From contig JANXYR010000079.1 of assembly GCA_025355965.1 (NCBI GenBank), positions 1 to 64,000 of the forward strand: DNA of 64,000 nt. Reading direction: 5' to 3'. Below the pieces are notes generated by a model. It was given only the letters and a program-made list of their open reading frames with translations. It was not told the DNA's origin and searched no databases. Position numbers and translations under genes: made by a program. The DNA is from Geobacteraceae bacterium (GTDB lineage: Bacteria > Desulfobacterota > Desulfuromonadia > Geobacterales > Pseudopelobacteraceae). Below, piece after piece: positions 13,963 through 33,521 of the stretch (position 1 is its first letter; each line of letters opens with the position of its first letter).

Positions 13963-14304
13963 ATGTACTGTTTCCACAAGAAAATCCCAAAAGAGGATAT
14001 CGGTGATGGCGTTCTTTTTCAGCATTTGGGGACTGGCAATGACATGACGGTTTTTCACTGGAATATGCCAGATGGATCTGTAGTGGAACTCCACCAGCAT
14101 CCGAATGAACAGTTCGGCTATGTGATAAAGGGTGGTTTCAAAATGACCATCGGTGCTGAGATTTCAGAACTATCAGTCGGAGATGCCTATTTTATCCCGC
14201 CCGACGTTCCACATACCTTCATCGCTGTCGGGGAGACAGAAGCTATCGATGTCTTTAACCCCAAGCGGGCAGAAGAAAATTTCCCGAACAAGAAAAAACA
14301 GTGA
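13963..14304 (+). CDS. Cupin-domain protein
   Basis: DGSVVELHQHPNEQFGYVIKGGFKMTIG...IPPDVPHTF; RBS AAGGAG before ATG 13963. Confidence 0.88.
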   Translation: MYCFHKKIPKEDIGDGVLFQHLGTGNDMTVFHWNMPDGSVVELHQHPNEQFGYVIKGGFKMTIGAEISELSVGDAYFIPPDVPHTFIAVGETEAIDVFNPKRAEENFPNKKKQ

Positions 14305-14365
14305 ACCGTTCCAGTTAAAAATATTCCGCATTTTTGCGGAAAATAACCCACTTAAGGAGAAGACC

Positions 14366-15139
14366 ATGGCAAAAAAAGTGATCATTCTGGCGACTAACTA
14401 TGGAACATGGGGCGAAGAGCTTCAAGCACCTTGGGACATCATCAAAAAGGCTGGCCATGAAGTGACGCTGGCTACTCCGCTTGGCAAGAAACCACTCCCG
14501 CTTAAAGTGAGTTGCGATCCGGATTTTTTTGATCCGATCATCAAGGTTCACACAAATCCTCCCGATGTCTGCAAGCGTATCAAGGAACTGACCGACGGTG
14601 ACGAGTGGGCCAATCCGCTTAAATATAAAGATGTCAAGATGGTAGATTATGACGCCATTGTTCTGACAGGCGGTTTGGGCGCCATGATAGATATGTGCAA
14701 CAACTACAATGTTCACAAGCTGATTATGGAAGCGTTCAACAGCAACAAGCTTATCGGCGCTCTGTGCTACTCGGTCACCACTCTGGTTTTCTGCCGTAAT
14801 TCTCTGAACGATCACAAGAGCATAATCTGGGGCAAGCAGATCGCCGCCCATCCGGACAAGTGGGATTTCTACGGTCCGGATTTTGACTTCACCTACGACC
14901 TCTATAACGAAACCGAAGACAACAAGATGACCGATGTTCACACCCCCGGCTTCCTCTGGCCGCTGGAACCGTTGGTGCGTGATGCGGTTGGTCCCGAAGG
15001 CAAATGCATTGCCAACATCTGGGCGAACCGCGACCATCCGACTGTCGTATATGATTGGCCATTTGTGACTGGCACATCGGTAGAGTCTTCCATTGCATAC
15101 GGAAAGAAACTCGTCGAAGTCCTTGCTACTCTCAAATAA
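14366..15139 (+). CDS. DJ-1/PfpI family protein
   Basis: KKVIILATNYGTWGEELQAPWDIIKKAGHEV..., nucleophile-elbow-like GALCYSVTTL; RBS AAGGAGA before ATG 14366. Confidence 0.82.
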   Translation: MAKKVIILATNYGTWGEELQAPWDIIKKAGHEVTLATPLGKKPLPLKVSCDPDFFDPIIKVHTNPPDVCKRIKELTDGDEWANPLKYKDVKMVDYDAIVLTGGLGAMIDMCNNYNVHKLIMEAFNSNKLIGALCYSVTTLVFCRNSLNDHKSIIWGKQIAAHPDKWDFYGPDFDFTYDLYNETEDNKMTDVHTPGFLWPLEPLVRDAVGPEGKCIANIWANRDHPTVVYDWPFVTGTSVESSIAYGKKLVEVLATLK

Positions 15140-15220
15140 ACTTTTTTTTAAATGCCTTCTCTCCCTCGCCTGGCGTAGCGGGGAGAAGGCATTTTTTTAG
15201 TCAAAGAAGGGAGGATTTCC

Positions 15221-15448
15221 ATGCCTTGCATCACCATACAAAGCCTTGAGTTGAACGACGACCAGAAAGTTTATCTGGCAGAAAACTTTAACAGGATGTT
15301 TTCCGAGGTCACTGGCGTCCCCGATGATCGAATCTATATTTTTTTTGATGGGTATCCCCTTGATTGTGCTGCAAAGAGTGGCAAACTTTTTTCCAAGAAC
15401 CCGCCTCAATTTGCCAAGGGAGCATTCTCGTTACCGGAGGCAAAGTGA
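15221..15448 (+). CDS. Tautomerase/MIF-like protein (Pro1)
   Basis: MPCITIQSLELNDDQKVYLAENFNRMFSEVTGVPDDRIYIFFDGYP. Confidence 0.75.
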   Translation: MPCITIQSLELNDDQKVYLAENFNRMFSEVTGVPDDRIYIFFDGYPLDCAAKSGKLFSKNPPQFAKGAFSLPEAK

Positions 15449-17109
15449 TGACAAACCTGGATGTAAATGAAGCTATTGTCAAAATTATTGAGAACATCGG
15501 AGTAACCCACGTTTTTGGCGGCAGCGGTCAGGTGAATGCCAGCATGTTACTAGCTCTGGACGAATCCAAAAAGGTGAAAACTGTCATTGTCCGTAACGAG
15601 CAAGCGGCCTCTTTCATGGCCTGCGGTTATGCAATGTTTTCTGATCGACTGGGCGTTTGTTTTGCTACCGGTGGCCCTGGAGCTTTCAATCTTCTTTCAG
15701 GCATGGCTGTGGCATTGTCCGATTCTCTTCCTGTGTTGGCTATCACCGGCTACACGTCAAAGGGGCAGCGCGGTAAAGGTGCGCTTAACGAGTCCACCGG
15801 CCTGCACAGAACACCTGATTCGCATGCTATGTTCATGGCCACCACCAAAAAATCGTTCATCATTGAAAGCGCGGATCAAACCTGCGACATCCTTGAAGAA
15901 GCTCTCAACCTGGCGTTTGAAGGTCGTCCTGGCCCTGTTCACATCCATATTCCCAAGGATATAACCATCGCCAAGGTGACAAATTTCAGAGAAATCAAGC
16001 TCAACATCAAGCCAATTCTGCCCGATCCTGACAAGATGGTTTTGATAGCCGAGTGTCTCGCCCAGGCAATTGAAAAGAAAGATCCGGTTATGCTGCTGGT
16101 TGGATACGGCTGCATTCGTAGTCACTCACAAAAAGAATTGTTGTATCTAATCGACAAGTTTCAGATTCCGTGGGCTAGTTCGATGGATGCCAAAGGCTTC
16201 CTTCCTGAAGATCATCCTTTAAGTTTGGGTGTATATGGAACATCAGGAGATCCAGGCGCCAAAAAATATTTCCAGACGGCAAAGGTTGTATTAGCGATCG
16301 GCAACTCCTTCCCCCAGAACGCCACCTTCGCCTTCAAGCCAGACCTGTATGCGGGTAAGACTCTTCTTCATATCAACATCGATCCAGACGAGATCGACAA
16401 GGTATACAAAGCTGATGTCGGCCTGGTTAGTGATGCGAAACCCGCCATCGTCGGGATAATTGAGGAGTTGTTCAAGCATGTTAAAAATATCGAGCCGGCC
16501 AGTATCGTGAGAGAAAAATACTACGATCTTCCTGTGACTTCTCCCGGGAGTAAAATTCACCCGGCCGAACTGGTTCGAGCCATATCCCGGAATCTGCCGG
16601 ATAACGCTATCACTCTAGGGGATGCCGGTTCCAATATGCTGTGGATGAATTGCTACCTGAATCTGACCGCTAATCAACGCTATCAGAACCCAGGCAGTTT
16701 CGGGCCCATGGCAAGCCATGTCAACGCAGCAATCGGTATCAAGGCGGCCAACCCTGACAAGGCGGTTGTTGCCTGTGTTGGTGATGGGGATTATCTGATG
16801 TCCGGGTTTGAGTTATTAACCGCTGTGGAATACAACATTCCGGTTGTGTGGATCATCATGAACAACGGAGAATTTAACGTCATCAAGAAGTTTTTGATTG
16901 ATTCGTTCGGCAAACATGCCTTCATGAAGTTCCTGAATCCTGATTTTGCCATGTATGCCAAGGCGTGCGGAGCTGAAGGTTACCGGGTTGAGAAGCTTGA
17001 GGATTTTGAACCGATCTTCAAGAATGCTATCGCCAGCAATAAACCCACTCTGATTGATGTGGTCATCGAATCTGAAGTCTATCCCCCGTTTGACATGGGG
17101 AAAGTGTGA
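15448..17109 (+). CDS. Thiamine-diphosphate-dependent enzyme (acetolactate synthase / 2-oxoacid decarboxylase-like)
   Basis: VRNEQAASFMACGYA, C-terminal TPP motif GDGDYLMSGFELLTAVEYNIPVVWIIMNN; start overlaps the upstream stop (GTGATG). Confidence 0.88.
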   Translation: MTNLDVNEAIVKIIENIGVTHVFGGSGQVNASMLLALDESKKVKTVIVRNEQAASFMACGYAMFSDRLGVCFATGGPGAFNLLSGMAVALSDSLPVLAITGYTSKGQRGKGALNESTGLHRTPDSHAMFMATTKKSFIIESADQTCDILEEALNLAFEGRPGPVHIHIPKDITIAKVTNFREIKLNIKPILPDPDKMVLIAECLAQAIEKKDPVMLLVGYGCIRSHSQKELLYLIDKFQIPWASSMDAKGFLPEDHPLSLGVYGTSGDPGAKKYFQTAKVVLAIGNSFPQNATFAFKPDLYAGKTLLHINIDPDEIDKVYKADVGLVSDAKPAIVGIIEELFKHVKNIEPASIVREKYYDLPVTSPGSKIHPAELVRAISRNLPDNAITLGDAGSNMLWMNCYLNLTANQRYQNPGSFGPMASHVNAAIGIKAANPDKAVVACVGDGDYLMSGFELLTAVEYNIPVVWIIMNNGEFNVIKKFLIDSFGKHAFMKFLNPDFAMYAKACGAEGYRVEKLEDFEPIFKNAIASNKPTLIDVVIESEVYPPFDMGKV

Positions 17110-17116
17110 GTTATTT

Positions 17117-17464
17117 ATGAATAAACTTGTCATCCCGGGCTTTAACCAGTCCGCCTTCGCCAACCGGTTTATCGGCAACCAGGAAAAGTTGAACGAGGGC
17201 ATAGATATACCGGATTGTTGCGACCAGATATTTCTGCTCACTTTCAATCCGGGTGACAAGCGCCCAATGCATTCTCACGAAGAGATCCGCCTGACCTTCG
17301 TCCGGTCGGGGCGGATGATGCTCACCTTTGAGCATTCCGTGCAAGAAATGGGGCAGGGGGATTTTTTTTCCTCTTTCCCCAATATGTTACACAGCCTCGA
17401 AGTTCTGGGGGATCAGCCGTTGAACCTTCTCGAAATAATCATTCCAAACCCTTGTGAAAAATAA
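17117..17464 (+). CDS. Cupin-domain protein
   Basis: PMHSHEEIRLTFVRSGRMMLTFE...FFSSFPNMLHSLEVLG. Confidence 0.8.
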   Translation: MNKLVIPGFNQSAFANRFIGNQEKLNEGIDIPDCCDQIFLLTFNPGDKRPMHSHEEIRLTFVRSGRMMLTFEHSVQEMGQGDFFSSFPNMLHSLEVLGDQPLNLLEIIIPNPCEK

Positions 17465-17483: not shown

Positions 17484-18341
17484 ATGAAGTTAATCAAGTT
17501 TGCCAATGTATGTTTTGTGCTGTTTTTAGCTCTTTCACTTTTTACCCTTTCGGGATGTGGTAGCAATGATTCTGACACCCCGGCGGTTACCGTTGCCCCT
17601 ATCGTCGTCCTGACCAAGATGAACGTTAAAACCGGCCAGGAAACTGCCGCAAAAACGGCGATCGTTAATTTTGTAACCGAAACCCATAAGGAAGCGGGCG
17701 TAATTTCTTACGATGTTTATCAGGGTAACGGAACTGAAGACCATACATTTTGGTTTCGCGAAGTCTGGAAGGATGCGGCTGCCATTTCTACTCATTTTGG
17801 AACCACTCAATTCGGAACTTTGGTGACTGCCGCCCCATCTCTTTTTAACGTTCAATTTACCGGTGGAGATGGAACACCTCAATATTTTATAGTGACAACC
17901 CAGACAACAACTGCCAGTGCCAAATCGCTTCTTACCGGTGCTGTCGCGATCGAGTACTTTAAGGCCAAAACAGGCAAAGACGTTGAGGCTCAAACCCTTT
18001 TGACTACTCTTGCCCAGTCCGCCCTGACACAAACAGGCAATGTTTCTTTTGATCTTTTCAAGTATGAGGCTAATTATGGGATGCCTGAGGGAACCTATCA
18101 GACTTTTTCAAAATGGCAGGGTTCAAACGCCTACGACACCTACTTGGCTTCAACCGCATACACGACATTCAAAACACAATCTGCAGCCTTGTCTGATACG
18201 GATACAGCCACTCTTGCGACCATGTTCACAACTCCGAAGACTCTTGCGCTTAAGGCAGAACAAATCGCCGATCCTCAACCACTTTCTGTAGAAAGCAAGA
18301 ATACTTTGAAAGAATACGTAAAGAAAATGGCAGGTCAATGA
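17484..18341 (+). CDS. Lipoprotein with two ABM-like (antibiotic biosynthesis monooxygenase fold) domains
   Basis: Lipobox FTLSGCGS; two repeats each with (K)MNVKTGQE.../FKAKTGKD... followed by ISYDVYQ.../VSFDLFKYE...; W motif FREVWKD / FSKWQGS. Confidence 0.75.
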   Translation: MKLIKFANVCFVLFLALSLFTLSGCGSNDSDTPAVTVAPIVVLTKMNVKTGQETAAKTAIVNFVTETHKEAGVISYDVYQGNGTEDHTFWFREVWKDAAAISTHFGTTQFGTLVTAAPSLFNVQFTGGDGTPQYFIVTTQTTTASAKSLLTGAVAIEYFKAKTGKDVEAQTLLTTLAQSALTQTGNVSFDLFKYEANYGMPEGTYQTFSKWQGSNAYDTYLASTAYTTFKTQSAALSDTDTATLATMFTTPKTLALKAEQIADPQPLSVESKNTLKEYVKKMAGQ

Positions 18342-18369
18342 GCTAATTGAGAAAATGAGGATTTTAGAT

Positions 18370-18741
18370 ATGCCAAAAAAGAAACTTACCCCGCAGGACA
18401 ACGCAGTTCTTGGTGATGAAGAATTGATGGCAGGCCTTCGGAAGCTTGATCCTGAATGGGGGGATTACTGCATCAGGGTATCAGGGGAAGCATATTCAAA
18501 ACCGCTTATCAGCCAGAAGACCAAGGTTATGATTGCCCTTGTCGTTGATATCGTCGAACAGCTTCACGGTCCACAGTTCGCCAACCATGTGAACATGGCC
18601 AAGAAGCAGGGCATCACACGCGAAGAGATCGAGGAGCTTCTCTACTTCATGACCGTCTACGTCGGTTTTAATAAAGCAGGCGGTTATTTCCCCGCTATTA
18701 AAGAGATTTTTGGCCCAAAACAGAATACTTCGCCCGACTAA
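18370..18741 (+). CDS. Carboxymuconolactone decarboxylase (CMD/AhpD-like) family protein
   Basis: ISQKTKVMIALVVDIVEQLHGPQFANHVNMAKKQGITREEIEELLYFMTVYVGFN; start may alternatively be 18355. Confidence 0.8.
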   Translation: MPKKKLTPQDNAVLGDEELMAGLRKLDPEWGDYCIRVSGEAYSKPLISQKTKVMIALVVDIVEQLHGPQFANHVNMAKKQGITREEIEELLYFMTVYVGFNKAGGYFPAIKEIFGPKQNTSPD

Positions 18742-18770: not shown

Positions 18771-19019
18771 ATGCCAGTTATTCAGATCAGCACACTTGAA
18801 CTCACCGATGAGCAGAAAATGGACATCGCAAGTAAGTTCACCAAGATTCTTTCCGATTCAACCAAAGTTCCCGAAGATCGGATCTATTGCATGTTCCATG
18901 ATTTTCCGCTCAACAGCATCGCAGCCGGAGGACACTTGGTCTCCGAGTTCCCTCCAGGCCCCGATGATTTTAACATCAAATACACCGCCGAACTTAAGAA
19001 AAAACGGGACAATCCTTAA
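18771..19019 (+). CDS. Tautomerase/MIF-like protein (Pro1), second copy
   Basis: MPVIQISTLELTDEQKMDIASKFTKILSDSTKVPEDRIYCMFHDFP; paralogue of 15221. Confidence 0.75.
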   Translation: MPVIQISTLELTDEQKMDIASKFTKILSDSTKVPEDRIYCMFHDFPLNSIAAGGHLVSEFPPGPDDFNIKYTAELKKKRDNP

Positions 19020-19034
19020 TAAGAGGAGCTTTCA

Positions 19035-19610
19035 ATGACGCTTAAAGGAAAAAAAATAGCGATTCTGATGGAAGGGGACTGGTATGAACCGGAAATCTGG
19101 TACTACCGTCTTCGCTTTGCTGAAGAAGGTGCAGAGGTTCATTTTCTTACCCGTATGTGGGGCCAGCCAGTTCTCACTTTTCTCGGCCATGAATTCCGCG
19201 CCCCTTTTGAGGTTACGGAATCTTTCGAGGGGATGGATGATGAAACGCTTAGAAGTTTTTCTGCTGTAATTGTTCCGGCTGGAATGGTTGCCGACCGGCT
19301 TCGCTATACCGAGGATATCAACAAGCTTCCACCTGCTGTGGAATTCATGAAGCGAGCGTTCGCCGAAAAAACTATTATCAAGGGAATAATCTGCCACGGG
19401 CTGTGGCTTGTTGCATCTGCCCCAGAGCTGGTTCGAGGGCGGAGTTTGGTTGTCCATAATAACCTTCTGGGAGATGCCCGTAACATGGGGGCACAATATG
19501 TCGATAATGATGTAGTGGTTGATGGTGACCTTGTCACTGCCCGCAGTGGCGGGCAGTGCAATCATTTTGCCCGTAAAATAATCGAGATGATTGCAGAAAG
19601 TTCAGGCTGA
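19035..19610 (+). CDS. DJ-1/PfpI family protein, second copy
   Basis: GKKIAILMEGDWYEPEIWYYRLRFAEEGAEV..., IKGIICHGLWLVASA (Cys elbow). Confidence 0.88.
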   Translation: MTLKGKKIAILMEGDWYEPEIWYYRLRFAEEGAEVHFLTRMWGQPVLTFLGHEFRAPFEVTESFEGMDDETLRSFSAVIVPAGMVADRLRYTEDINKLPPAVEFMKRAFAEKTIIKGIICHGLWLVASAPELVRGRSLVVHNNLLGDARNMGAQYVDNDVVVDGDLVTARSGGQCNHFARKIIEMIAESSG

Positions 19611-19619: not shown

Positions 19620-20021
19620 ATGGATACGCCAATCTATGCCCACATGGGTCTTAACTGCAAGGATATGGAAGCAACAGAAGCGTTTTACTGCACACACTTT
19701 GGTTTTCATCGTGCACGAGCAATTCCGCTAGGAGATGATCAAATCATCTTTCTGAAATCCGGGGAGATTTATCTTGAACTTTTCAAAGCCAAGGGCGATT
19801 CACCGGAGACTCCCTACACCAATGACGGCCCGCAGTACGCTGGATTTCGCCATATTTCTTTTACCGTAGAGGATGTAGACGCCACATTGAAAGCTATTAG
19901 TGCGGAGTTGACCTTGGGACCACTTGTTTTAGACGACATTACCGGCTGGAAAGCAGCCTGGATAAAAGATCCTGACGGTAGAATCATTGAAATTTGCCAA
20001 GGTTACAAGGACGACATGTAG
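19620..20021 (+). CDS. VOC-superfamily (glyoxalase/dioxygenase-like) protein
   Basis: HMGLNCKDMEATEAFYCTHFGFHRAR...FRHISFTVEDVDAT...KDPDGRIIEICQ. Confidence 0.9.
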   Translation: MDTPIYAHMGLNCKDMEATEAFYCTHFGFHRARAIPLGDDQIIFLKSGEIYLELFKAKGDSPETPYTNDGPQYAGFRHISFTVEDVDATLKAISAELTLGPLVLDDITGWKAAWIKDPDGRIIEICQGYKDDM

Positions 20022-20063
20022 AAGCTGCAATACATCCATTAAAACATGAAACAGGAGGAAAAG

Positions 20064-21890
20064 ATGGGACAGTTAAAATTCACTTTTTCGGACACCATCG
20101 CCGGCTATGTTACCAGCTTCAACCGCACGGAGCGTTCTTTTGGCCTCAAAACCTCTGAAGGGAAAGAATATACTCTCTTCATAACACCAATGACCTATGC
20201 CAAGGTTACCCAGAATCTTGATGAGGGCTACATCGATGCCACCGGCAGGCTTGCCGAACTGCTTGATGAGGGCAATCTGGTCTACGCCTACTGCATCTTC
20301 TACCCAAAGGGTGACGATTACCGGATTGAGGTAAAATCGATGATCTTCCCCGGAAACAATGTTGGCACATATCGCCATGAAGAGCAGGACTGGTGGATTA
20401 AACAGGTTCGCTCTATCGCAGACAGTTACCTGAAATGGCAGTTCAATTATCCTGAAACCCCGATTGATTTTAAAAATTACCGTACATTCCTGCATCTAGG
20501 TGGTGGCAAGAAGGGGGATTACCTTCAGGAAACAGACACAATTTCGCGTCTAGTATACGGCTTTGCTTCTGCATATCTGATGACCGGCGAGGATCGTTTT
20601 CTGGAAGGAGCCGAAATAGGCACTGCTTATCTGCGCGAACATGTCCGCTTCTATGATAATGATGAAGACCTTGTTTACTGGTATCACGGCCTGCAGGTTT
20701 CCGGCGATCGTGAGCAAAAATTGCTGACATCGGAATTCGGCGACGATTACGACTCGCTCCCTATGTATGAGCAGATTTATGCCCTGGCCGGGCCAACACA
20801 AACCTACAGGATCACCGGCGATCCAGCAATCATGTTTGACATCGAAAAAACCATTAGCCTCTTTGAGAAATATTACAAAGACAACGACAAGGAGGGGTAT
20901 TTCTCCCACATCGATCCGATCACACTGGATCCCCGTTCCGCGACTCTTGACAAAGGAAATAACCGCGCCAAGAAAAACTGGAACTCCGTCGGCGACCACG
21001 CCCCTGCATATCTAATCAACCTCTGGCTGGCTACGGGGGAAGAAAAGTATGCCGATTTCCTGGAATATACTTTTGATACTATCGAAGAGCATTTTAAGGA
21101 CTATGAGAACAGCCCCTTTGTCCAGGAGCGTTTCTTTGAAGACTGGAGCCACGACAAAACCTGGGGGTGGCAGCAGGATAACGCCGTTGTCGGCCACAAC
21201 CTGAAGATATCCTGGAACCTGATGAGGATGAACAGCCTCCGTCCTAAAGACAAATATGTGTCTTTTGCCAAGAAAATTGCAGAACTTATGCCGGAAGCCG
21301 GAAGCGACCGGCAGCGCGGCGGCTGGTATGACGTGGTTGCAAGAACATTAGCGCCCGGCGAGGAATATCACCGCTTTACCTGGCACGACCGCAAAGCGTG
21401 GTGGCAGCAAGAGCAGGCCATCCTGGCTTACATGATCCTGAACGGCGTACTGAAAGACGACGAATACCTGCGTCATGCACGCGAAGCAGCCGCCTTCTAC
21501 AATGCACACTTTCTCGACCATGATGACGGAGCGGTCTATTTCAACGTGCTGGCAAACGGAGTGCCGTATCTGATGGGAAATGAGCGTTTTAAAGGAAGTC
21601 ATTCCATGAGCGGCTATCACTCCACAGAACTTTGCTATCTTTCGGCCGTTTATACTAATCTGCTGATCAACAAAGTTCCGATGGATCTTTATTTCAAGCC
21701 GAAACCTGGCGGATTCAAGGACAATATCCTGAGAGTTTCCCCTGACATTCTGCCCAAAGGAAGCGTAAAGCTGACCGCAGTCGAAATCGACGAAAAACCT
21801 TATACTAATTTCAATGCCGATGAGCTGTTTGTAACGCTTCCGGTATCGGACAAAGATCTCAAAGTGAAAGTTACAATTACGCCGGCATAG
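20064..21890 (+). CDS. AGE-fold ((alpha/alpha)6 barrel, N-acylglucosamine 2-epimerase-like) protein with extra N- and C-terminal beta domains
   Basis: Barrel motifs WGWQQDNAVVGHNLKISWNLMRM and AWWQQEQAILAYMIL; RBS AGGAGG before ATG 20064. Confidence 0.72.
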   Translation: MGQLKFTFSDTIAGYVTSFNRTERSFGLKTSEGKEYTLFITPMTYAKVTQNLDEGYIDATGRLAELLDEGNLVYAYCIFYPKGDDYRIEVKSMIFPGNNVGTYRHEEQDWWIKQVRSIADSYLKWQFNYPETPIDFKNYRTFLHLGGGKKGDYLQETDTISRLVYGFASAYLMTGEDRFLEGAEIGTAYLREHVRFYDNDEDLVYWYHGLQVSGDREQKLLTSEFGDDYDSLPMYEQIYALAGPTQTYRITGDPAIMFDIEKTISLFEKYYKDNDKEGYFSHIDPITLDPRSATLDKGNNRAKKNWNSVGDHAPAYLINLWLATGEEKYADFLEYTFDTIEEHFKDYENSPFVQERFFEDWSHDKTWGWQQDNAVVGHNLKISWNLMRMNSLRPKDKYVSFAKKIAELMPEAGSDRQRGGWYDVVARTLAPGEEYHRFTWHDRKAWWQQEQAILAYMILNGVLKDDEYLRHAREAAAFYNAHFLDHDDGAVYFNVLANGVPYLMGNERFKGSHSMSGYHSTELCYLSAVYTNLLINKVPMDLYFKPKPGGFKDNILRVSPDILPKGSVKLTAVEIDEKPYTNFNADELFVTLPVSDKDLKVKVTITPA

Positions 21891-21899
21891 GAGATTTTC

Positions 21900-22232
21900 A
21901 TGGCCATAGAAACAAAAATAGATGGAACGAACGTAATCGCTACTGTAAGCGGCGAGATCGATGGCAAGAGTGCGCCTCAGTTGCAGTCTGAATTATTGGC
22001 CGCCTTGCAGGACGGGAACCGGCTGCTGGTAGATATGAAGGGCGTTACTTATCTATCAAGCGCCGGCCTGAGAATGCTGTTGCTACTGTATCGTCAGATA
22101 GCCACCAAGAAAGGCAAGGTTGTGCTCGTAGGCGTTTCCGATGAGATAAGAGACACCATGTCCATGACAGGATTTATCAATTTTTTCACACTTGTTGACA
22201 CCCAGGAAGCCGGTATTTCGGCACTTTCCTGA
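21900..22232 (+). CDS. STAS-domain anti-sigma-factor antagonist (SpoIIAA/RsbV-like)
   Basis: ATVSGEIDGKSAPQLQSELL...VDMKGVTYLSSAGLRMLLLL. Confidence 0.92.
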   Translation: MAIETKIDGTNVIATVSGEIDGKSAPQLQSELLAALQDGNRLLVDMKGVTYLSSAGLRMLLLLYRQIATKKGKVVLVGVSDEIRDTMSMTGFINFFTLVDTQEAGISALS

Positions 22233-22252
22233 TTTTCCGGAGGAGCTGTATA

Positions 22253-24453: not shown

Positions 24454-24777
24454 ATGGCATTCGACGCACAATTGGCAATGGCAGACCACATAGCAAAAAT
24501 CACCCTCATCGGCTCGCTTGACGCCAGCTCTGCTCCTCGCTTTAAAGAGGTAATAGAGGAGGCCGCGGTTCAATCACCCACTAAACTTGTTCTTCTGATG
24601 GATAGCCTTGATTTTTTGGCCAGTGCCGGTCTGCGGGTACTTATCTTTGCTAAGCAGAAAATGGGCGCAGGCGTTGATATTTATGTTGTAGGCAGTCAGG
24701 GGCCGGTGCTGGCGACCTTAGAAATGAGCGGATTCCACCATAGTGTATATATACAGGAAACCTACGTGGAGGCCTGA
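24454..24777 (+). CDS. STAS-domain protein, second copy
   Basis: ITLIGSLDASSAPRFKEVIEEA...LDFLASAGLRVLIFAKQKM. Confidence 0.9.
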   Translation: MAFDAQLAMADHIAKITLIGSLDASSAPRFKEVIEEAAVQSPTKLVLLMDSLDFLASAGLRVLIFAKQKMGAGVDIYVVGSQGPVLATLEMSGFHHSVYIQETYVEA

Positions 24778-24811
24778 TTCACGTTGTAATTATGACTTCA
24801 AAGGGAATTTT

Positions 24812-25240
24812 ATGATACCACTATGCCTTCCCGCAACATTGGATTCACTTGATGAAATAGGAAAATACATTGTTGCGGCGACTACCGAGGCAAAACTCGA
24901 AACTAAACCCGCCTACGGGTTACGGCTCGCTGTCGACGAAATCGCCACCAATATAATTACCCACGGTTATGAGGAAACGGGTAAAGCCGGGAATGTCACA
25001 GTAAGCGGAGAAATTACCGATTCTTCACTTACTATTGTGCTTGAGGACAGTGGTATTCCGTTTGACCCTTTGAGCAGGAAGCTCCCCAGCGAAGATGAGT
25101 TGAATCTTCCCCTCGAAGAACGTGATATCGGTGGGCTTGGAATTTTCCTGGTGCTTAAAGGAGTAGATAGTTTCAGCTACGAATTTATCAATGGTAAAAA
25201 CAGAAACATGTTTACCATGAATCTACCAGGAAAGGCCTGA
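24812..25240 (+). CDS. RsbW/SpoIIAB-like anti-sigma serine kinase (HATPase_c)
   Basis: N box AVDEIATNIITHGY, G1 LEDSGIPFDP, G2 IGGLGIFLV. Confidence 0.9.
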   Translation: MIPLCLPATLDSLDEIGKYIVAATTEAKLETKPAYGLRLAVDEIATNIITHGYEETGKAGNVTVSGEITDSSLTIVLEDSGIPFDPLSRKLPSEDELNLPLEERDIGGLGIFLVLKGVDSFSYEFINGKNRNMFTMNLPGKA

Positions 25241-25241
25241 T

Positions 25242-25775
25242 ATGGAGACGATAGACACCATATTCACCCGCAGAAGCATTAGAAATTTCCTTGGCAAACC
25301 TGTTGAACCTGAACATGTTAAAACTCTTCTGAAAGCCGCCATGTATGCCCCTTCGGCTGTGAATGAACAACCATGGCGTTTTCTGGTTCTCAGCGACAGG
25401 ACACTTTTCCCGGGCATAATAAAGATTCACCCATATGCAACAATGTTGAAAACCGCGCCTCTGGCGATACTTGTCTGTGGCGATCTGAACCTGGAGAAAG
25501 TTCCCGGAAACTGGGTTCTGGACTGTTCATGCGCGTCTCAGAATATTCTTCTTGCAGCACATTCAATCGGACTTGGTGCGGTATGGACCGGTGTGTATCC
25601 TGAAGAGGATAGAATGAGTGGGCTTACTGAACTGTTCCATCTACCGGGAAAAGTTCTTCCCTTTGCGCTCATCGGGGTAGGTTATCCTGAGGGAGAACCC
25701 CCGAAACAACCAGAACGCTTCAAACCTGAAAGAATTTCGATGAACAGTTGGGAAAACGCATATTTAGTAGAATAG
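25242..25775 (+). CDS. Nitroreductase-family protein
   Basis: IFTRRSIRNFLGKPVEPEHVKTLLKAAMYAPSAVNEQPWRFLVL. Confidence 0.93.
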   Translation: METIDTIFTRRSIRNFLGKPVEPEHVKTLLKAAMYAPSAVNEQPWRFLVLSDRTLFPGIIKIHPYATMLKTAPLAILVCGDLNLEKVPGNWVLDCSCASQNILLAAHSIGLGAVWTGVYPEEDRMSGLTELFHLPGKVLPFALIGVGYPEGEPPKQPERFKPERISMNSWENAYLVE

Positions 25776-25785
25776 GAGATGTCTC

Positions 25786-27936
25786 ATGCTGAACAGATTC
25801 CTTTCAAAAGGAAACATCCGTTCCCGAATTCTTAAAGCACTGCTTGGCGTTGCCTCTATTTCACTGATTAGCTTTGCAATTGTTTCGCTGGACGGGATGA
25901 TGCGTCTGGGAGATTTTTCTGTTAAATCAAGTACCGGACTGGGGCAAGAAACACTCAAAATAAGCAAATCTGCTCTTGAATCATTAGCCCAGGATGGCTT
26001 ACAACGAATTGCTACTGATCGCGCCAATCTCTGTAACGCTGAATTCAAAGAGGTTGAGGGGGCTGTCAACGTCCTGGCGGATATCAGTGAAAAACTTTGG
26101 GCCAACCCGACATTGTATCCCAGAAATCGCTCCTATTCGGCTGCCCAGCAACCGCCTAATCCCAAACTAAGCTCCGTATACCAGTATCCCATTGGGGTTG
26201 ATTTCAAGAAGGTAAAGAGCGATCTGGAGTTGTCGTCCGCCATGGACTCAATTTTCATGCCGTTCATTGCCAACAACTCAAACATCAACGACTTTAATCT
26301 TGCTACACCGGATGGTCTGTTCCGGCGTTTTCCTTGGGGAACAGTTGCAGATGATTATGATGTGCGTAAACGGGACTGGTTCAAGCGTGCGGTTGAATCT
26401 GGCAAAGGCGGTTGGAGCACCCCGTATATCGGTGTTATTGCTAAAAATCTGCGTATCAATTACTCAAAGCCGATCTATCGCAATAAAAAACTGGTAGCAG
26501 TAGTAGCTATCAATGTGCCGCTCCAGACTATTAATGAGAGAATAATTTCGACCAGACTGAACAATCAGGGTAGCGCAGTGCTTGTTGACAACAATCGCAA
26601 GATTATCGCACGAGAGGGGATGATTACAAATTCAGAAAACTGGGCGGATCCGCAAAAGGCAGAACACTTCGCCCTAGATTCAGATTCTTTGGGTAATAAG
26701 AATTTCGAGGAGGATCTGCTTGCTGCGAAACCTGGAATTCACCGTGCAAAATACAAGGGTAAAGATTGCTATATCGCATATGCACCGGTAACATCCACCC
26801 ACTGGTCTGTACTCTTTATAATGCCGGTAGATGCGATAAATGCACCGATTATTCCGACTGAAAAGGCAATCATACATCAGGCTGAAACAGTCAAAGGGCA
26901 AGTAACAGACAAAATTCGGTTTTCCATTGTGGTGTTGTCCGTTGTGTTCTTGATAATTGTCTTTGCGGTGTATGTTGTAGCAAGACGCATGGCTGAATTT
27001 GTAACCGGGCCGATCATGGAACTGGACAAGGGTGTTCGCATAATCGGTAACGGCAATCTTGAACACAAAATTGAGATAGATTCAGGGGACGAGATTGAAG
27101 AACTAGCCGGCACCTTCAATAAAATGACTTCCGACCTACGCGAATATATTCGCGATTTGACCGAGACTACCGCTGCCAAAGAGCGTATTCAGAGCGAGTT
27201 GAAGGTCGCGACAGATATCCAGGCAAGCCTGCTGCCTCGACTATTTCCAGCGTTTCCGGATCGTCCAGAGTTCGATATTTTTGCCACGATGGACCCTGCC
27301 AAAGAGGTTGGTGGTGATTTCTACGATTTCTTCTTTATTGACGATAATAACCTCTGCTTTATTATTGCTGACGTTGCCGATAAAGGCGTGCCTGCTGCCC
27401 TCTATATGATGGTATCAAAAACCCTGCTGAAATCCGAGGGGCAGCGACTTGGCGAGCCTGACCAGATACTTAGATATGTGAATAATATTCTTGCCGCAGA
27501 CAATGAAAACTGCATGTTCGTTACGGTATTCTGTGCCATTCTGAATACAAGAACCGGGGAGGTCCGTTTTGCCAATGCCGGACATAATCCTCCGCTGATA
27601 ATAGAATCACAGGGGATTCGGTATCTGACGGTGAAAGCAGGTTTTGTACTGGGTCCTATTACGGATTCGGCCTATGAAACCGAGCTGATCACCATGCTGC
27701 CAGGTGACACCCTGTTTCTCTATACGGACGGGGTAACTGAGGCGAAAAATCCAGAAGCGGAACTTTACGGAGAGCCGCGTTTGTTGAACGCACTTGAATG
27801 TGGCCCTAAAGAAGATCTTGCAGAAATGATCCACAATATTCGCACCGCCGTGACAAAGCACGCCAACGGTGCTCCTCAATCAGATGATGTGACCCTGCTG
27901 GCCATAAAATACAAGGGAGTTGTAGCTGATGTTTAA
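25786..27936 (+). CDS. SpoIIE-family PP2C serine phosphatase with Cache-like extracellular sensor and HAMP
   Basis: N-terminal TM + Cache-like region (DVRKRDWFKRAVESGKGGWSTPYIG), HAMP, PP2C motifs AKEVGGDFYDFF and GDTLFLYTDGVTEA. Confidence 0.93.
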   Translation: MLNRFLSKGNIRSRILKALLGVASISLISFAIVSLDGMMRLGDFSVKSSTGLGQETLKISKSALESLAQDGLQRIATDRANLCNAEFKEVEGAVNVLADISEKLWANPTLYPRNRSYSAAQQPPNPKLSSVYQYPIGVDFKKVKSDLELSSAMDSIFMPFIANNSNINDFNLATPDGLFRRFPWGTVADDYDVRKRDWFKRAVESGKGGWSTPYIGVIAKNLRINYSKPIYRNKKLVAVVAINVPLQTINERIISTRLNNQGSAVLVDNNRKIIAREGMITNSENWADPQKAEHFALDSDSLGNKNFEEDLLAAKPGIHRAKYKGKDCYIAYAPVTSTHWSVLFIMPVDAINAPIIPTEKAIIHQAETVKGQVTDKIRFSIVVLSVVFLIIVFAVYVVARRMAEFVTGPIMELDKGVRIIGNGNLEHKIEIDSGDEIEELAGTFNKMTSDLREYIRDLTETTAAKERIQSELKVATDIQASLLPRLFPAFPDRPEFDIFATMDPAKEVGGDFYDFFFIDDNNLCFIIADVADKGVPAALYMMVSKTLLKSEGQRLGEPDQILRYVNNILAADNENCMFVTVFCAILNTRTGEVRFANAGHNPPLIIESQGIRYLTVKAGFVLGPITDSAYETELITMLPGDTLFLYTDGVTEAKNPEAELYGEPRLLNALECGPKEDLAEMIHNIRTAVTKHANGAPQSDDVTLLAIKYKGVVADV

Positions 27937-28891
27937 CAGCAGATTTATACAATTGCCAATACTGCTGTTTATGGCAGTTTTGTTGTCCACTTCGGTGGCT
28001 TGGGGAGCAGAACGGGAAGTAAAGCGAGTTGCAATGATTCTTTTCCGGGGAGAAACTCCTGCTGAAAAAGGCTTCCGCAGTACCCTGTCTGCCTCAAAGG
28101 ATTTTGATGTCAAAATTACGGTTTTTGACGCAAACCAGAATAAGGACAAACTCAAAAGCATTATTAGCGGACTTGACCAGGATCAATTTGATCTTTTCTA
28201 CGTTTTTGGCACCATGGCCGCTCAGGTGGCAATGGAAAAGATAACGGATAAACCGGTTATCTTCAATGTTGTACAGCGACCCGTCGAGGCAAAACTCGTT
28301 AATAGCTGGGAGAGTTCCGGCAACAACATAACCGGGGCGTCGAATATAGTTTCGATGGAAAGTGCCTTCAGGACGCTGTCTCTGGTTATGAATATCCGCA
28401 AGCTGGCCTTTATCTATTACGAAAAAGATCCTGCTCCAAAGTTTCAGAAAACAGAGGTTGAAAGAGTCCGCAAAAATTTCGGTTTCAAAATAATTGATGT
28501 TCCGGTACGTGACGTGGAGGCTATCCCTGCTGCACTGAAACAGATCGTAAGCGCGAGAGTTGATGCTGTCATGTTCCCATCAGACTCGTTCATAAAAGTT
28601 AATGCAAACAGAATAATGAAGGTTCTCAACCAACACCGGATACCTACCGTAGTGATAATTCCTGAGATGGTAACAGAAAATGGAGCGCTGATTTCCCTGG
28701 GTCCTGATTACCAAAAGCTGGGTGAGCTTGCCGGGATCAGTGCTATTGATATATTGAAAGGGAAAAAACCTGCCGATATACCGATCAAAAGAGTGCAAAA
28801 TCTGAACATCAGCGTAAATCTGAAAACCGCCGATAAACTGGGGATAAATTTACCCATACAACTACTTTCTCTTTCAACAGTCATTCACTGA
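27929..28891 (+). CDS. ABC-transporter substrate-binding-like protein (ABC_sub_bind type)
   Basis: Signal peptide; VAMILFRGETPAEKGFRSTL..., FYVFGTMAAQVA, NITGASNIV; overlaps upstream ORF. Confidence 0.82.
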   Translation: MFNSRFIQLPILLFMAVLLSTSVAWGAEREVKRVAMILFRGETPAEKGFRSTLSASKDFDVKITVFDANQNKDKLKSIISGLDQDQFDLFYVFGTMAAQVAMEKITDKPVIFNVVQRPVEAKLVNSWESSGNNITGASNIVSMESAFRTLSLVMNIRKLAFIYYEKDPAPKFQKTEVERVRKNFGFKIIDVPVRDVEAIPAALKQIVSARVDAVMFPSDSFIKVNANRIMKVLNQHRIPTVVIIPEMVTENGALISLGPDYQKLGELAGISAIDILKGKKPADIPIKRVQNLNISVNLKTADKLGINLPIQLLSLSTVIH

Positions 28892-28901: not shown

Positions 28902-29906
28902 GTGACATCAGATAACTTATTATCATTGGTTACACCTATCGAAATATATATGATGTTGCGTGGCTTCATTCCTGTTGTCACTATTGTAATCGTAGGAATA
29001 GTCATAGGCCGATGGGACTCCTCCAAGCACCAGAAAACCTTAATAAAACTGACAAATTATATATTTCTTCCCTGCCTTGCCTTTTCTGCACTACACAAAC
29101 ATGCTTTTGATCCTGCCGAAATATTTCGTATTGCCCTTGCCGTGCTAATAATAATAGCCGTTACCACGTTTGTTTCAGTTGCAGTATTGCGGCAAAAAAT
29201 CCGGGGAGGTTCGAAAAATATACTTGCCGCTGTTTATATGAGCAGTGGAACACTGTTGCTGCCACTCAGCTACGTACTCTTTGGTAATGAGGGGCTTGCA
29301 AAAGCGATATATTTTCATCTTTTTATCATTCTTGCCTATCATACGGTCGGACTCTGGATGGTCGATGGCAAGACCGATCTGAAAGTTGTTTTAAAGACAC
29401 CCTTTATCTACCTTATTGCTCTGGGGGTTGCAGCACGGATATTCCCTTTCTCAATGCCTGAAACCATCGAGGAATTTGCCTGGCTTTTCGAAAAAGGTAT
29501 TGATCTTACTGCGATGGGGGCGCTCCCGCTACTGCTTATAAGTTTCGGTTATCCTCTAGGACTTTTGAAATTTTCTGACGCAAGAGGCGGGTTAAAGGGG
29601 GGATTGTTAAGGGTCATAGTCGGTCCGACAGTTGCCTTGCTGGTAGTCTACATCTACAGAAAGACCGGCTTGATAAGCATGGAAAGGGGATACGATGTGC
29701 TGGGATACCTGGATCAGCGTACAACTGAAGCTATACTGGTTTTGGCGGCTGCCTTGCCGACCTCAAATTCTGCCATGCGATTGGTGGGGGATGAGGTAAA
29801 GGCCGGAAAAGCGGAAACAGGAACACTTCTGGTCAGTGCGATAACCTGCATTATAACAATCCCGGCTGTGCTGATGCTTATACTGATGTTTATTTTTACA
29901 GATTAA
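28902..29906 (+). CDS. AEC-family transporter
   Basis: 334 aa multi-TM; LTNYIFLPCLAFSALHKHAF, ALPTSNSAM; GTG start. Confidence 0.85.
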   Translation: MTSDNLLSLVTPIEIYMMLRGFIPVVTIVIVGIVIGRWDSSKHQKTLIKLTNYIFLPCLAFSALHKHAFDPAEIFRIALAVLIIIAVTTFVSVAVLRQKIRGGSKNILAAVYMSSGTLLLPLSYVLFGNEGLAKAIYFHLFIILAYHTVGLWMVDGKTDLKVVLKTPFIYLIALGVAARIFPFSMPETIEEFAWLFEKGIDLTAMGALPLLLISFGYPLGLLKFSDARGGLKGGLLRVIVGPTVALLVVYIYRKTGLISMERGYDVLGYLDQRTTEAILVLAAALPTSNSAMRLVGDEVKAGKAETGTLLVSAITCIITIPAVLMLILMFIFTD

Positions 29907-29919: not shown

Positions 29920-30912
29920 ATGAACATCGTTTCAACTGAAATGCTCATTATCATACGGGCGGTACTTCCATCCTTCACCATTGCGCTCCTTGGTTTCATG
30001 CTCGGCAAGCTCGACAGCATGAGAGAGATGAACCAAAAAACCATCTCCAATATGGTTTATTACTTCTTCACGCCATGTCTTGTGTTTTCGTCCCTCCACA
30101 AAAGAAGTTTTGATTTTCAGGAGTTCGCCGTAATCGGCGGGGCAGCCTTACTGTTGATTGCCATAATGACGCCAGTGGCTTTTTTCTTTAAAAAACAGGC
30201 TGGTGTACGGGAAAACGGTTATGTTCTACCGATTATTTTTATGAATACCGGAAATATTTCACTCCCGATTGCGCTGCTTATGTTCGGCAACGAAGGACTG
30301 GCAAAATCCATCATGTTCCATATGATGAACATCCTTGTGCTTTACTCATATGGCGTATACCTGGTTAGCGGCAAATCTGATCTGATGCAATTTTTCAAGA
30401 TACCTGCTCTCTGGGCAACTATATTGGGCGTTGTGGCAGCAACATGCAATCCAGCGCTTCCAGGATTAGTCAGCGATAGCTATGACATTCTGAATAAAGG
30501 CATCGACGTGCTCGCACTAGGCGCTATTCCATTGCTCATCATCAATCTCGGTTATTCCATGAGTGATACAAAGCTTTCCACCTTAAAGGATGGCTTTACC
30601 GGTGCGACTCTGCGCCTGCTTGCAGGCCCGCTTTTGGCCTTCGGCTTGGTTTACGCTTACAGACTGATTGGCTGGATTCCTGCGTTTACTCAGGGTATGG
30701 ATCCTCTTACATCATTTGGATATCGTACTACTGAAGCGATCATTGTCATTAACGCAGCTATGCCTGGGCCAGTAATGGCATATTTGCTGAACGTAAAGTT
30801 TGACAACTGTCCTCAAAAAGCCGCTTCTATGCTGGCTGTTGGAACATTGGGGGGCATTGCTACAATACCGCTGATACTCAGCCTTATCACCCGATACATT
30901 GTCGGTGGGTGA
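29920..30912 (+). CDS. AEC-family transporter, second copy
   Basis: 330 aa multi-TM; ISNMVYYFFTPCLVFSSLHKRSF, NAAMPGPVMAYLL; paralogue of 28902. Confidence 0.85.
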   Translation: MNIVSTEMLIIIRAVLPSFTIALLGFMLGKLDSMREMNQKTISNMVYYFFTPCLVFSSLHKRSFDFQEFAVIGGAALLLIAIMTPVAFFFKKQAGVRENGYVLPIIFMNTGNISLPIALLMFGNEGLAKSIMFHMMNILVLYSYGVYLVSGKSDLMQFFKIPALWATILGVVAATCNPALPGLVSDSYDILNKGIDVLALGAIPLLIINLGYSMSDTKLSTLKDGFTGATLRLLAGPLLAFGLVYAYRLIGWIPAFTQGMDPLTSFGYRTTEAIIVINAAMPGPVMAYLLNVKFDNCPQKAASMLAVGTLGGIATIPLILSLITRYIVGG

Positions 30913-30974: not shown

Positions 30975-32243
30975 ATGCGCTATCCGCCTGACCAACTGCT
31001 ACAGTTGCGGGAACGCTGGAACTTGTCACTGATTGACCCGGTCACTGAATTGACGGTCGTAATCGAAGAATGCAAAACCTTCGGCGAATTATTACGCCTG
31101 CGCCTCACCACTATTGGACTGCTTTCAGGCAAGAGTGTTCCTCACATCACGGGTGTGGAAAAACTTGAAGCATGGCGAACCCGTCTGCATAATGAGTGGG
31201 TGGATACATGTGATACTCCGTTTGCCGACATTATTGCTGAATTGCGACTTTATGGCTTGTCCGAGATTATCAAGATTGAGGCTGCGCGGTACGAAATCAG
31301 GGATACTTACGACCTGCGCGGGGCATACTTGAAAGATGTGGTTTTTGCTGGCGCATATCTTGAAAATGCCCACTTCGAAGGCGCAGACCTGACCAAGTCA
31401 TGCTTAGCGGGGGCACGCTGCTTCGAGACTCATTTTGAGGACGCTTTGTGTGAGCATGCATCGTTCATGGGAGCGGAATGTCACTTTGCTACTTTTATCG
31501 GAGCTAACTGCGACCATGCCTCATTTGAACAGGCCGATTGCACCATGGTTCGTTTTGATCTTACTCGTCTCCGCCAGGCCTCTTTCGATGGCGCCACCTG
31601 CTTTGCTGCAATATTTAACGATGCCTATCTAAACCACGCCTCGCTTGAAACCATGCATATAAATCATCTAACACGCTTTGGTAAACCGGGAGAACAGAAC
31701 GAGGCAGAACGGTCTAAGCCATCACGTAAAAAGGAGACTACCGAGGGAGACGACTGGTATATCGTCGAACTTTTCCCTGTTTGGCTACAAGCCGCCGAAG
31801 TCAATTCAAAGATACGCCTCCTTCTCAAGTCACATGGCTATTTTTGGGAAGCGGATGAGTACCAATATCTGGAGATGGTCTGTAGGCGTCACGTTTTACA
31901 TCAGAGCAGGGTGAGTGAGTTTTTTGAATGGTTCTTTAAAGACCTGATGTTCGGTTACGGATTGAAGTGGAAACGCCCATTGATCAGCGTCCTGATCATC
32001 ATACTGTTATGGGCACTTGGTTTTACACTCCATTTCAGGTTAAACGTGTTGCATGATCTTTTTACCAGCATCGGCTACGGTCTCTACTATTCTGTAATAT
32101 CCTTTACGACGCTTGGATTTGGCAACGCGCCAGACCTGGAAGGTGTCTGGCCAAAGCTGTTACTCTGTTCCGAAGCACTGATCGGGACAATACTCATGCC
32201 GCTGTTCCTGCTGGCATACGCGAGAAAGATTTTACAGGATTGA
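30975..32243 (+). CDS. Pentapeptide-repeat protein fused to a two-TM K+-channel-like domain
   Basis: Repeats AYLENAHFEGADLTKSCLAGARCFETHFEDA...; C-terminal pore SVISFTTLGFGNAPD between TM helices. Confidence 0.85.
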   Translation: MRYPPDQLLQLRERWNLSLIDPVTELTVVIEECKTFGELLRLRLTTIGLLSGKSVPHITGVEKLEAWRTRLHNEWVDTCDTPFADIIAELRLYGLSEIIKIEAARYEIRDTYDLRGAYLKDVVFAGAYLENAHFEGADLTKSCLAGARCFETHFEDALCEHASFMGAECHFATFIGANCDHASFEQADCTMVRFDLTRLRQASFDGATCFAAIFNDAYLNHASLETMHINHLTRFGKPGEQNEAERSKPSRKKETTEGDDWYIVELFPVWLQAAEVNSKIRLLLKSHGYFWEADEYQYLEMVCRRHVLHQSRVSEFFEWFFKDLMFGYGLKWKRPLISVLIIILLWALGFTLHFRLNVLHDLFTSIGYGLYYSVISFTTLGFGNAPDLEGVWPKLLLCSEALIGTILMPLFLLAYARKILQD

Positions 32244-32294
32244 CACAACGATGGTTTGTGTTTTGCATTTATTCACTTTTATGGAGATACGGTT

Positions 32295-32744
32295 ATGATA
32301 TTTGATTCTTTAGATAACTTTCGGATGTATGTAGATCTTAATCCCGGGTTTTCAGATATTCAAACATTTCTATCAAAGACAGATTTGGCGGGGCTTGCCA
32401 TTGGTAAACATCCCATAAATGACAACGGTGGATATGCTTCAGTAAACGAGTACAACACCAAGTCAATTGAAGATTCCTTTATCGAATGTCACCGAAAGTT
32501 TATAGATGTTCAGATAATCGCCTGGGGCGAAGAGAAAATAGGTGTGACTCATAAACAGTTTTGCGTTGAACAGCCGTATGATGACGCAAAGGATTTACAA
32601 AAACTCACAGGGAAGCTTGATTTCATGACGTTATTGCCGGAATTGTTTGCGGTTTTCTTCCCTCATGATGCCCATGAGCCTGGCATTAGTAGTGGAGCAG
32701 GAGCAGTTGCTGTCAAGAAGATTGTATTTAAAATTCCTGTCTAA
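32295..32744 (+). CDS. YhcH/YjgK/YiaL family protein
   Basis: KHPINDNGGYASVNEYNTKSIEDSFIECHRKFIDVQIIAWGEEKIGV...FFPHDAHEPG. Confidence 0.88.
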   Translation: MIFDSLDNFRMYVDLNPGFSDIQTFLSKTDLAGLAIGKHPINDNGGYASVNEYNTKSIEDSFIECHRKFIDVQIIAWGEEKIGVTHKQFCVEQPYDDAKDLQKLTGKLDFMTLLPELFAVFFPHDAHEPGISSGAGAVAVKKIVFKIPV

Positions 32745-32783
32745 TTCCAAACTGTATTCAAGCTGACAAGTGGAGAGTGCCAT

Positions 32784-33521
32784 ATGAAACAGATTGGGAT
32801 CACTGGTGCTGCGGGCAATGTTGGATGCACACTCCAAAGAGGATTGGGTAACCTGTACGCACTTAGGCTATTCGATATTAAAGGTAGGAGATCTCCGGCA
32901 GGTGGAGAGGTTGTTCGAGTGGATGCCGGGGAACGAAGCCAACTTGCTGGTCTGTTCGATGGTCTGGATGTCCTTATCCACCTTGCTGGCAACCCTAGCC
33001 CAAGTGCCTTGAAAGAGTCAACCAGCCGCAATAACTTTGTCGCCACCAGCTATGTTTTTGAGGAAGCCAGGCAAGCGGGAGTTAAAAAGATCATCTTCGC
33101 CAGTTCCAATTTTTATCATGAAGGAGATATCGGAAAACTGCTGCATGGTCAGGACAAGGGGCATTTGATCACTCTGGACACGCCACCAACCCCTCAGTGC
33201 CTCTACGGAGAATCAAAGGTGTTCGGCGAGACCGTTGGCCGCCATCTTTCACATCTTGGTGTCCAGTTTGTTGCATTACGTATCGGCTGGACCGTCCCTG
33301 AGGACGATCCGGCGCTCTATCGCAGTCCATATATGCGTGCCGTTTTTTGCAGTAATCGTGACCTTGTCCAGGCTTTTTCGAGAGCTATTGAAATAGAGAC
33401 CGATTTCATGACGGCGTTTGCAGTAAGCAATAACAGTAGTGCCGTATTTGACCTCGAAGAAACAAGAAAAAAACTGGGCTTTATTCCGCAGGACAATGCT
33501 GAGAACTATGTCGGTGCGTAA
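32784..33521 (+). CDS. NAD-dependent epimerase/dehydratase family SDR (uronate-dehydrogenase-like)
   Basis: IGITGAAGNVGCTLQRGL..., LIHLAGNPSP, YGESKVFGE. Confidence 0.85.
   Translation: MKQIGITGAAGNVGCTLQRGLGNLYALRLFDIKGRRSPAGGEVVRVDAGERSQLAGLFDGLDVLIHLAGNPSPSALKESTSRNNFVATSYVFEEARQAGVKKIIFASSNFYHEGDIGKLLHGQDKGHLITLDTPPTPQCLYGESKVFGETVGRHLSHLGVQFVALRIGWTVPEDDPALYRSPYMRAVFCSNRDLVQAFSRAIEIETDFMTAFAVSNNSSAVFDLEETRKKLGFIPQDNAENYVGA

Follow-up and report, generated by a model that had tools for sequence, protein, structure and literature searches.

The 64,000-nucleotide stretch of DNA analysed here (the window; positions 1 to 64,000 of contig JANXYR010000079.1, GenBank assembly GCA_025355965.1) comes from a Geobacteraceae bacterium and carries, at positions 13963-33521, a block of 23 genes that all lie on the plus strand. 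We consider it probable that this block is a partner-switching cluster of the icfG type, in which sensing at the membrane is linked to glycogen debranching and to a set of co-recruited carbonyl enzymes. The block is real and conserved and is centred on a known system; what is new is the variant and the breadth of its occurrence. Genes 9-17, numbered along the block from cupin A (gene 1) to the SDR gene (gene 23), encode a DJ-1 protein, a VOC protein, an AGE-fold protein, a STAS protein, GlgX, a second STAS protein, an RsbW-type kinase, a nitroreductase and a SpoIIE-type phosphatase, and, the VOC and nitroreductase genes aside, the icfG operon of Synechocystis has this same composition. The original prediction, made from the letters of the window, had stated that no pathway of this composition was described, which is wrong for the centre of the block (PMC8670252, PMC12329169).

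The icfG-type core and known switches

In Synechocystis sp. PCC 6803, the operon slr1852-1862 includes Slr1855 (AGE), Slr1856 (STAS), GlgX1 and IcfG (PMC8670252); slr1857 encodes an isoamylase, slr1856 and slr1859 STAS proteins, slr1860 the IcfG phosphatase and slr1861 an anti-SigC kinase (PMC12329169), and slr1853 is given as a carboxymuconolactone decarboxylase (CMD; PMC3564720). Slr1861 phosphorylates both Slr1856 and Slr1859, IcfG dephosphorylates Slr1856 only, Slr1861 binds SigC, a sigma factor of group 2, and growth on glucose at low carbon is affected in icfG mutants (PMC12329169). The window has the same families as this gene set, which is treated as one operon, namely a CMD protein, an AGE-fold protein, two STAS proteins, a glycogen-active GlgX/isoamylase, an RsbW-type kinase and a SpoIIE-type phosphatase, all but the first of them encoded together on one strand at 20046-27936, with the nitroreductase gene (177 aa, 25242-25775, PF00881) between kinase and phosphatase. 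Among the cyanobacterial loci of the survey described below, L046 has the order CMD-DJ1-AGE-STAS-GlgX-STAS-RsbW-SpoIIE, in agreement with the slr1852-1862 operon, and the cyanobacterial loci carry a DJ-1 gene at the position corresponding to slr1854, which encodes a DJ-1 protein. The window differs from the icfG cluster in that its host is not a cyanobacterium and in that its phosphatase is of the dCache-HAMP type and is accompanied by AEC transporters and by a binding protein whose gene overlaps its own, whereas the phosphatase of the cyanobacterial locus L043 is of the REC-GAF type; moreover, the window adds a module of DJ-1, thiamine pyrophosphate (TPP) enzyme, cupin and tautomerase genes as well as VOC, nitroreductase, ion-channel, YhcH and SDR genes. 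A literature search of partial coverage found no paper on a glycogen/partner-switch operon outside cyanobacteria.

The two STAS genes encode predicted anti-anti-sigma-type phosphoproteins (STAS1, 110 aa, 21900-22232; STAS2, 107 aa, 24454-24777; both PF01740, with TIGR00377 above its cut-off), each of which, judged from the alignments, keeps a putative Ser/Thr phospho-acceptor: the SSAG motif of STAS1 (residues 53-56) is invariant in 74 of 74 sequences, and the site of Ser57 in STAS2 is occupied by Ser in 66 and by Thr in 6 of 72. The serine kinase of the RsbW/SpoIIAB type (142 aa, 24812-25240, PF13581) scores under the RsbW equivalog cut-offs, and its residues Glu43, Asn47 (N-box), Asp79 (G1-box), Gly108 and Gly110 (G2-box) are invariant in 61 of 61 sequences. 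In the phosphatase, the metal-site residues Asp511, Asp529 and Asp648 are conserved, and Asp514 is replaced by Asn in 3 of 36. A PP2C phosphatase, a STAS phosphoprotein and a serine kinase with signature residues are likewise found in the RsbU-RsbV-RsbW and SpoIIE-SpoIIAA-SpoIIAB switches; unlike these, the window interleaves two STAS genes with genes of metabolic enzymes, and no sigma factor gene lies in the cluster or in the 80 sibling loci. The SiaABCD system of Pseudomonas aeruginosa also employs a membrane HAMP + PP2C sensor phosphatase, and SiaA is the best NCBIfam equivalog of the window phosphatase, but its 81.5 bits are far under the family cut-off of 700 bits. Moreover, the SiaA system acts on a diguanylate cyclase, and none is present among the 23 identified genes of the window.

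The GlgX glycogen debranching enzyme (720 aa, 22253-24415) reaches 704.9 bits against TIGR02100, above the cut-off of 640.9 bits, and is the sole GlgX match in the host genome, which also holds genes of the glycogen phosphorylase (GlgP) and glycogen synthase (GlgA) families. The AGE-fold protein (614 aa, 20046-21890, PF07221) has the fold of the glucose/GlcNAc/cellobiose 2-epimerases. Its predicted model (pLDDT 84.8) forms an (alpha/alpha)6 barrel (Foldseek E 5.8e-17), and its best PDB match is the glucose-2-epimerase Runsl_4512 (PDB 8h1k-8h1n; TM-score 0.72 on target), with which the GHN..W and WQQ motifs align. It differs from Runsl_4512 by an N-terminal beta domain of ~90 residues (residues 14-105) and by Lys387, which stands in place of the Glu of GHNSE (8h1k). 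The Glu of the His-x-x-Glu motif is catalytic in the AGE superfamily, whereas GHNLK with Lys387 is found in 80 of 80 AGE-fold sequences. Hence, we do not call the protein a 2-epimerase; sequence and model point to a member of the fold, and do not support 2-epimerase activity.

Conservation of the core and exchange of its sensors

In named genomes, a profile search with the AGE-fold protein returned at least 419 relatives; we surveyed the 80 best loci, picked by the AGE-fold gene alone, together with flanks of up to 10 kb in either direction. A homologue of the window's GlgX lies within these flanks in all 80 loci, with STAS1 in 74, STAS2 in 71, RsbW in 61 and SpoIIE in 37, and with the carbonyl-type genes DJ-1b in 65, VOC in 44, TPP in 39 and DJ-1a in 38. 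Seven window genes that flank the cluster served as a control and were found in 0 of the 80 loci. Chance adjacency of the core is rejected by this comparison (GlgX 80/80 vs controls 0/80), and where all five of AGE, STAS1, GlgX, STAS2 and RsbW are present they keep this order and strand in 60 of 61 loci, with median gaps of 26-88 nt. The original prediction had proposed a search of other genomes for co-occurrence of its families; such co-occurrence is conserved and far above chance, and the refutation that the prediction had named, a lack of co-occurrence in any other genome, does not hold.

The hosts of the 80 loci belong to 11 named groups, including Cyanobacteriota, Chloroflexota, Bacteroidota, Nitrospirota, Acidobacteriota, Omnitrophota and Pseudomonadota (Accumulibacter, Contendobacter, Competibacteraceae). 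A Nostocaceae subgroup (L101, L104, L106, L108, L109) is rearranged, GlgX preceding AGE and STAS1 and RsbW not being detected; its neighbours, from their sequences, are an apparent cyclic-nucleotide-domain histidine kinase and a protein resembling a response regulator/thioredoxin reductase. At L024:2035-3855, a stop codon interrupts the AGE-fold frame shortly before its end (it is open to 3576); this may reflect a genuine truncation or a fault in the assembly. Distant AGE homologues from the window's own phylum (L027, L028, L029) adjoin DJ-1-like and GH13-like genes, and in two cases a TPP-like gene, and the partner-switch core was not detected at these three loci. Possibly, as their gene content hints, an AGE/DJ-1/GH13 metabolic association exists independently of the switch.

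The phosphatase of the window (716 aa, 25786-27936; PF02743, PF00672, PF07228) is a membrane sensor with the architecture dCache-HAMP-SpoIIE/PP2C, and this part of the cluster is exchanged between lineages: REC-GAF-PP2C is found in the cyanobacterium L043, and cNMP-PP2C and HAMP-PP2C are found in Omnitrophota. In Bacteroidota (L063-L097, e.g., L097:15357-21156), an nSTAND-WD40 NTPase gene followed by that of a TonB-dependent receptor occupies the phosphatase position in 19 loci, an arrangement that suggests a different input to the same switch. In the window, the gene of an ABC-type periplasmic binding protein (320 aa, 27929-28891, PF04392 E=5.8e-41) overlaps the phosphatase gene by 8 nt, and no ABC permease or ATPase is encoded beside it in the cluster; the binding protein may be a co-sensor rather than part of a transporter. 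It is followed by two AEC-family transporters (a, 334 aa, 28902-29906; b, 330 aa, 29920-30912; both PF03547), a pentapeptide-repeat protein with a C-terminal ion-channel domain (422 aa, 30975-32243; PF00805, PF07885), a YhcH/DUF386 sugar anomerase-like protein (149 aa, 32295-32744; PF04074, TIGR00022 above cut-off) and an SDR of the NAD-dependent epimerase/dehydratase family (245 aa, 32784-33521, PF01370 E=4.3e-13). The core and the sensor/transport genes are common to the window and two genomes of its genus; homologues of the pentapeptide-repeat/ion-channel gene follow the phosphatase in G010 and G021, and an SDR homologue of 79% identity lies at the same place in G003.

The upstream carbonyl genes and the continuity of the block

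The 23 open reading frames were re-derived with their start sites. The largest intergenic gaps are 81, 62, 61 and 51 nt, and at two junctions the genes overlap, by 1 and 8 nt, so that the original prediction of 23 plus-strand genes with gaps under 90 nt or overlaps holds, as do its family names, which Pfam and NCBIfam confirm (tautomerase 1 lies slightly under the Pfam cut-off). The edges of the block are clear, since its neighbours run on the minus strand: an Ig-like gene upstream and comM- and pgeF-like genes downstream, as named from their sequences. The block opens with cupin A (113 aa, 13963-14304, PF07883 E=3.5e-16), the DJ-1/PfpI-like protein a (DJ-1a, 257 aa, 14366-15139, PF17124/PF01965), tautomerase 1 (75 aa, Pro-1 kept, 15221-15448; PF01361 20.4 bits, under the 22-bit cut-off, with homologues in the sibling loci L077, L087 and L105) and a TPP-dependent enzyme of the acetolactate synthase superfamily (553 aa, 15448-17109, PF02775/PF00205/PF02776). 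There follow cupin B (115 aa, 17117-17464, PF07883 E=3e-11), an ABM-domain lipoprotein (285 aa, 17484-18341, PF03992) with an N-terminal lipobox-like motif, LTLSGC, read from the sequence, the CMD family protein (128 aa, 18355-18741, PF02627) and tautomerase 2 (82 aa, Pro-1 kept, 18771-19019, PF01361 E=1.4e-9), and then the DJ-1/PfpI protein b (DJ-1b, 191 aa, 19035-19610, PF01965) and the VOC/glyoxalase-fold protein (133 aa, 19620-20021, PF00903) that precede the AGE-fold gene. The reading of the TPP enzyme as an ordinary acetolactate synthase was rejected as unproven, every NCBIfam equivalog shown being under its cut-off; its best PDB matches are BbmA/CsmA, enzymes on which a literature search of partial coverage found no paper.

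Genes 1-8 differ in history from the core, as seen for the two that were tested, DJ-1a and TPP. Their nearest relatives in the set come not from the genus but from Omnitrophota (L105), Bacteroidota (L087, L077, L074) and Balneolota (L079), DJ-1a being 80% identical to its relative in L105 and 75% to that in L087. The Mantel correlation with AGE distances is 0.67-0.84 for STAS1, STAS2, RsbW, GlgX and SpoIIE (the last from 8 sequences) and 0.33 for DJ-1a and 0.43 for TPP. G003 and G025, two genomes of the same genus, have genes 9-20 and 22 at 63-95% identity to those of the window, but carry divergent relatives in place of DJ-1a and TPP. Genes 5-8 were not found in the four same-genus clusters, all of which have DJ-1b as their first common gene; the boundary between shared and non-shared genes thus falls between tautomerase 2 and DJ-1b (18771-19610), likely the graft point. 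In L105, the cupinA-DJ1a-taut1-TPP set is found on the downstream side of the core, along with another copy of DJ-1a; in L087, it is found on the upstream side, along with CMD and cupinB. In other lineages, GMC oxidoreductase, SnoaL-like or EthD proteins take the place of this set. Given its differing presence and position across lineages, we regard the upstream set as an exchangeable accessory module.

Between genes 2 and 3 (DJ-1a and tautomerase 1), a plus-strand hairpin followed by T7 at 15150-15194 resembles an intrinsic terminator or attenuator. Its dG of -29.1 kcal/mol was equalled by 0 of 200 shuffles (-14.0 +/- 2.7; z -5.7), and it is the sole strong hairpin with a T-run in the intergenic gaps examined; no comparable terminator-like barrier was seen across genes 3-23. 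The automatic terminator scan, whose counts are at chance (19 found vs 18.7 expected), did not list this hairpin, and the promoter scan gave no match between it and gene 3. Since the start codon of gene 3 is only 26 nt downstream, the hairpin may be an attenuator and not a full stop. The "single supercluster" of the original prediction hence stands as a co-oriented block but is oversimplified as one unit, given the internal hairpin and the modules of different histories.

Output of the switch, alternative readings and significance

Five sigma-70-family factors are encoded in the host genome: an RpoD-like factor, an RpoS-like factor (directly after pcm), FliA and two short ones, probably of the ECF type. 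No homologue of these was found in the window, in its relatives' regions or in the 80 sibling loci (1.46 Mb), so that no cognate sigma gene lies inside the cluster in the window or in these loci. Hence, either the output acts in trans or it is something other than a sigma factor. The same genome carries a second, unrelated partner switch (L116, contig C17, ~48-50 kb), comprising a SpoIIE-domain membrane protein, a STAS protein with a DSSG motif and an RsbW-type kinase, beside a gene resembling a hydrogenase maturation protease.

We propose that the SpoIIE-type phosphatase would receive a ligand at its periplasmic dCache domain, with the overlapping binding protein perhaps as the intermediary. 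The phosphatase would then dephosphorylate STAS1 and/or STAS2 and the RsbW-type kinase would rephosphorylate them, as suggested by the conserved residues and by the published Synechocystis biochemistry; the dephosphorylated STAS protein would capture the kinase, whose other partner would be released. As there is no sigma gene in the cluster, the best candidate for that partner would be the RpoS-like factor encoded elsewhere in the genome, which we take to belong to group 2, as does SigC. The circuit would adjust carbon use, with GlgX opening glycogen together with GlgP and the AGE-fold protein acting on a sugar or glucan; the DJ-1, VOC, TPP, cupin and tautomerase enzymes, whose exchange between lineages is observed, would handle carbonyl/2-oxoacid by-products or feed-in of the same metabolism. 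Several observations weigh against so complete a picture. The SpoIIE gene lies in the stretch taken for only 37 of the 80 loci; the carbonyl genes are variable, and their correlation with AGE is weaker (0.33-0.43 for DJ-1a and TPP), so that their chemical coupling is loose; and a single transcript across the junction of genes 2 and 3 is doubtful given the hairpin, which may separate genes 1-2 from the rest.

It is conceivable, although in our opinion unlikely, that the switch has no sigma output and that STAS1 and STAS2 bind the AGE-fold protein and/or GlgX and regulate them directly by their phosphorylation state. STAS proteins act directly on their targets in some non-sigma switches, and such an output would fit the interleaved and nearly always contiguous arrangement of AGE-STAS1-GlgX-STAS2-RsbW, the lack of sigma homologues in the regions searched, the loss of the usual catalytic Glu in the AGE-fold family, and SiaA as the best, though far under cut-off, equivalog of the phosphatase. 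However, the characterised relative Slr1861 binds SigC, and a sigma gene is not listed in that operon either (PMC12329169). In a still more tentative form, which we would offer as a speculation, a widespread multi-phylum switch would control glycogen debranching without necessarily a sigma factor; (de)phosphorylated STAS proteins would gate GlgX and/or the Lys-variant epimerase-fold protein, and the sensor and carbonyl modules would be exchangeable among lineages.

A different objection concerns the extent of the cluster: carbonyl genes 1-8 might be an unrelated upstream operon on the same strand, the functional unit being the icfG-type core with its sensor and transporters. In favour of this are the terminator-like hairpin after gene 2, the failure to find genes 5-8 in any of the four clusters from the genus, and the contrast between DJ-1a and TPP, with their nearest relatives in other phyla, and the core, whose nearest relatives are in the genus; yet the core has the same cupinA-DJ1a-taut1-TPP series next to it in L105, and a series that also includes CMD and cupinB in L087, TPP or DJ-1a homologues are present in about half of the 80 loci, and no promoter match separates the hairpin from gene 3, 26 nt away, and we consider this reading rather improbable. 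The patchy distribution of the cluster (found in 5 of 37 genomes of the genus, in none of 21 genomes that belong to the order's other families, and in 9 of the 395 sampled from the phylum, some only distant) would also suit a mobile gene cluster without common regulation, kept together only by repeated horizontal transfer. This seems to us very unlikely, as the order of the core genes is kept across phyla and most phyla fall into one or two groups of the AGE tree (11 changes, minimum 10), with the five genus sequences in one clade (100*); hence, recent promiscuous transfer is not the rule.

The icfG-type partner-switching cluster that we favour agrees in part with the original hypothesis of a membrane-sensed stress response that would couple glucan/sugar turnover to reactive-carbonyl or 2-oxoacid chemistry: a dCache-HAMP-SpoIIE phosphatase, a partner switch and glucan debranching are linked, and carbonyl/2-oxoacid-type enzymes recur beside them in many phyla. 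The cited icfG literature treats the cluster as a cyanobacterial regulator of carbon and photosynthesis. That it also occurs in bacteria that are not phototrophic (Accumulibacter, Competibacter-type bacteria, Bacteroidota, Nitrospirota and the host of the window) suggests that its ancestral job was storage glucan and carbon use and not photosynthesis. The swapped sensors and the conserved Lys-variant AGE-fold protein offer handles on the input and the target of the switch, including that of Synechocystis.

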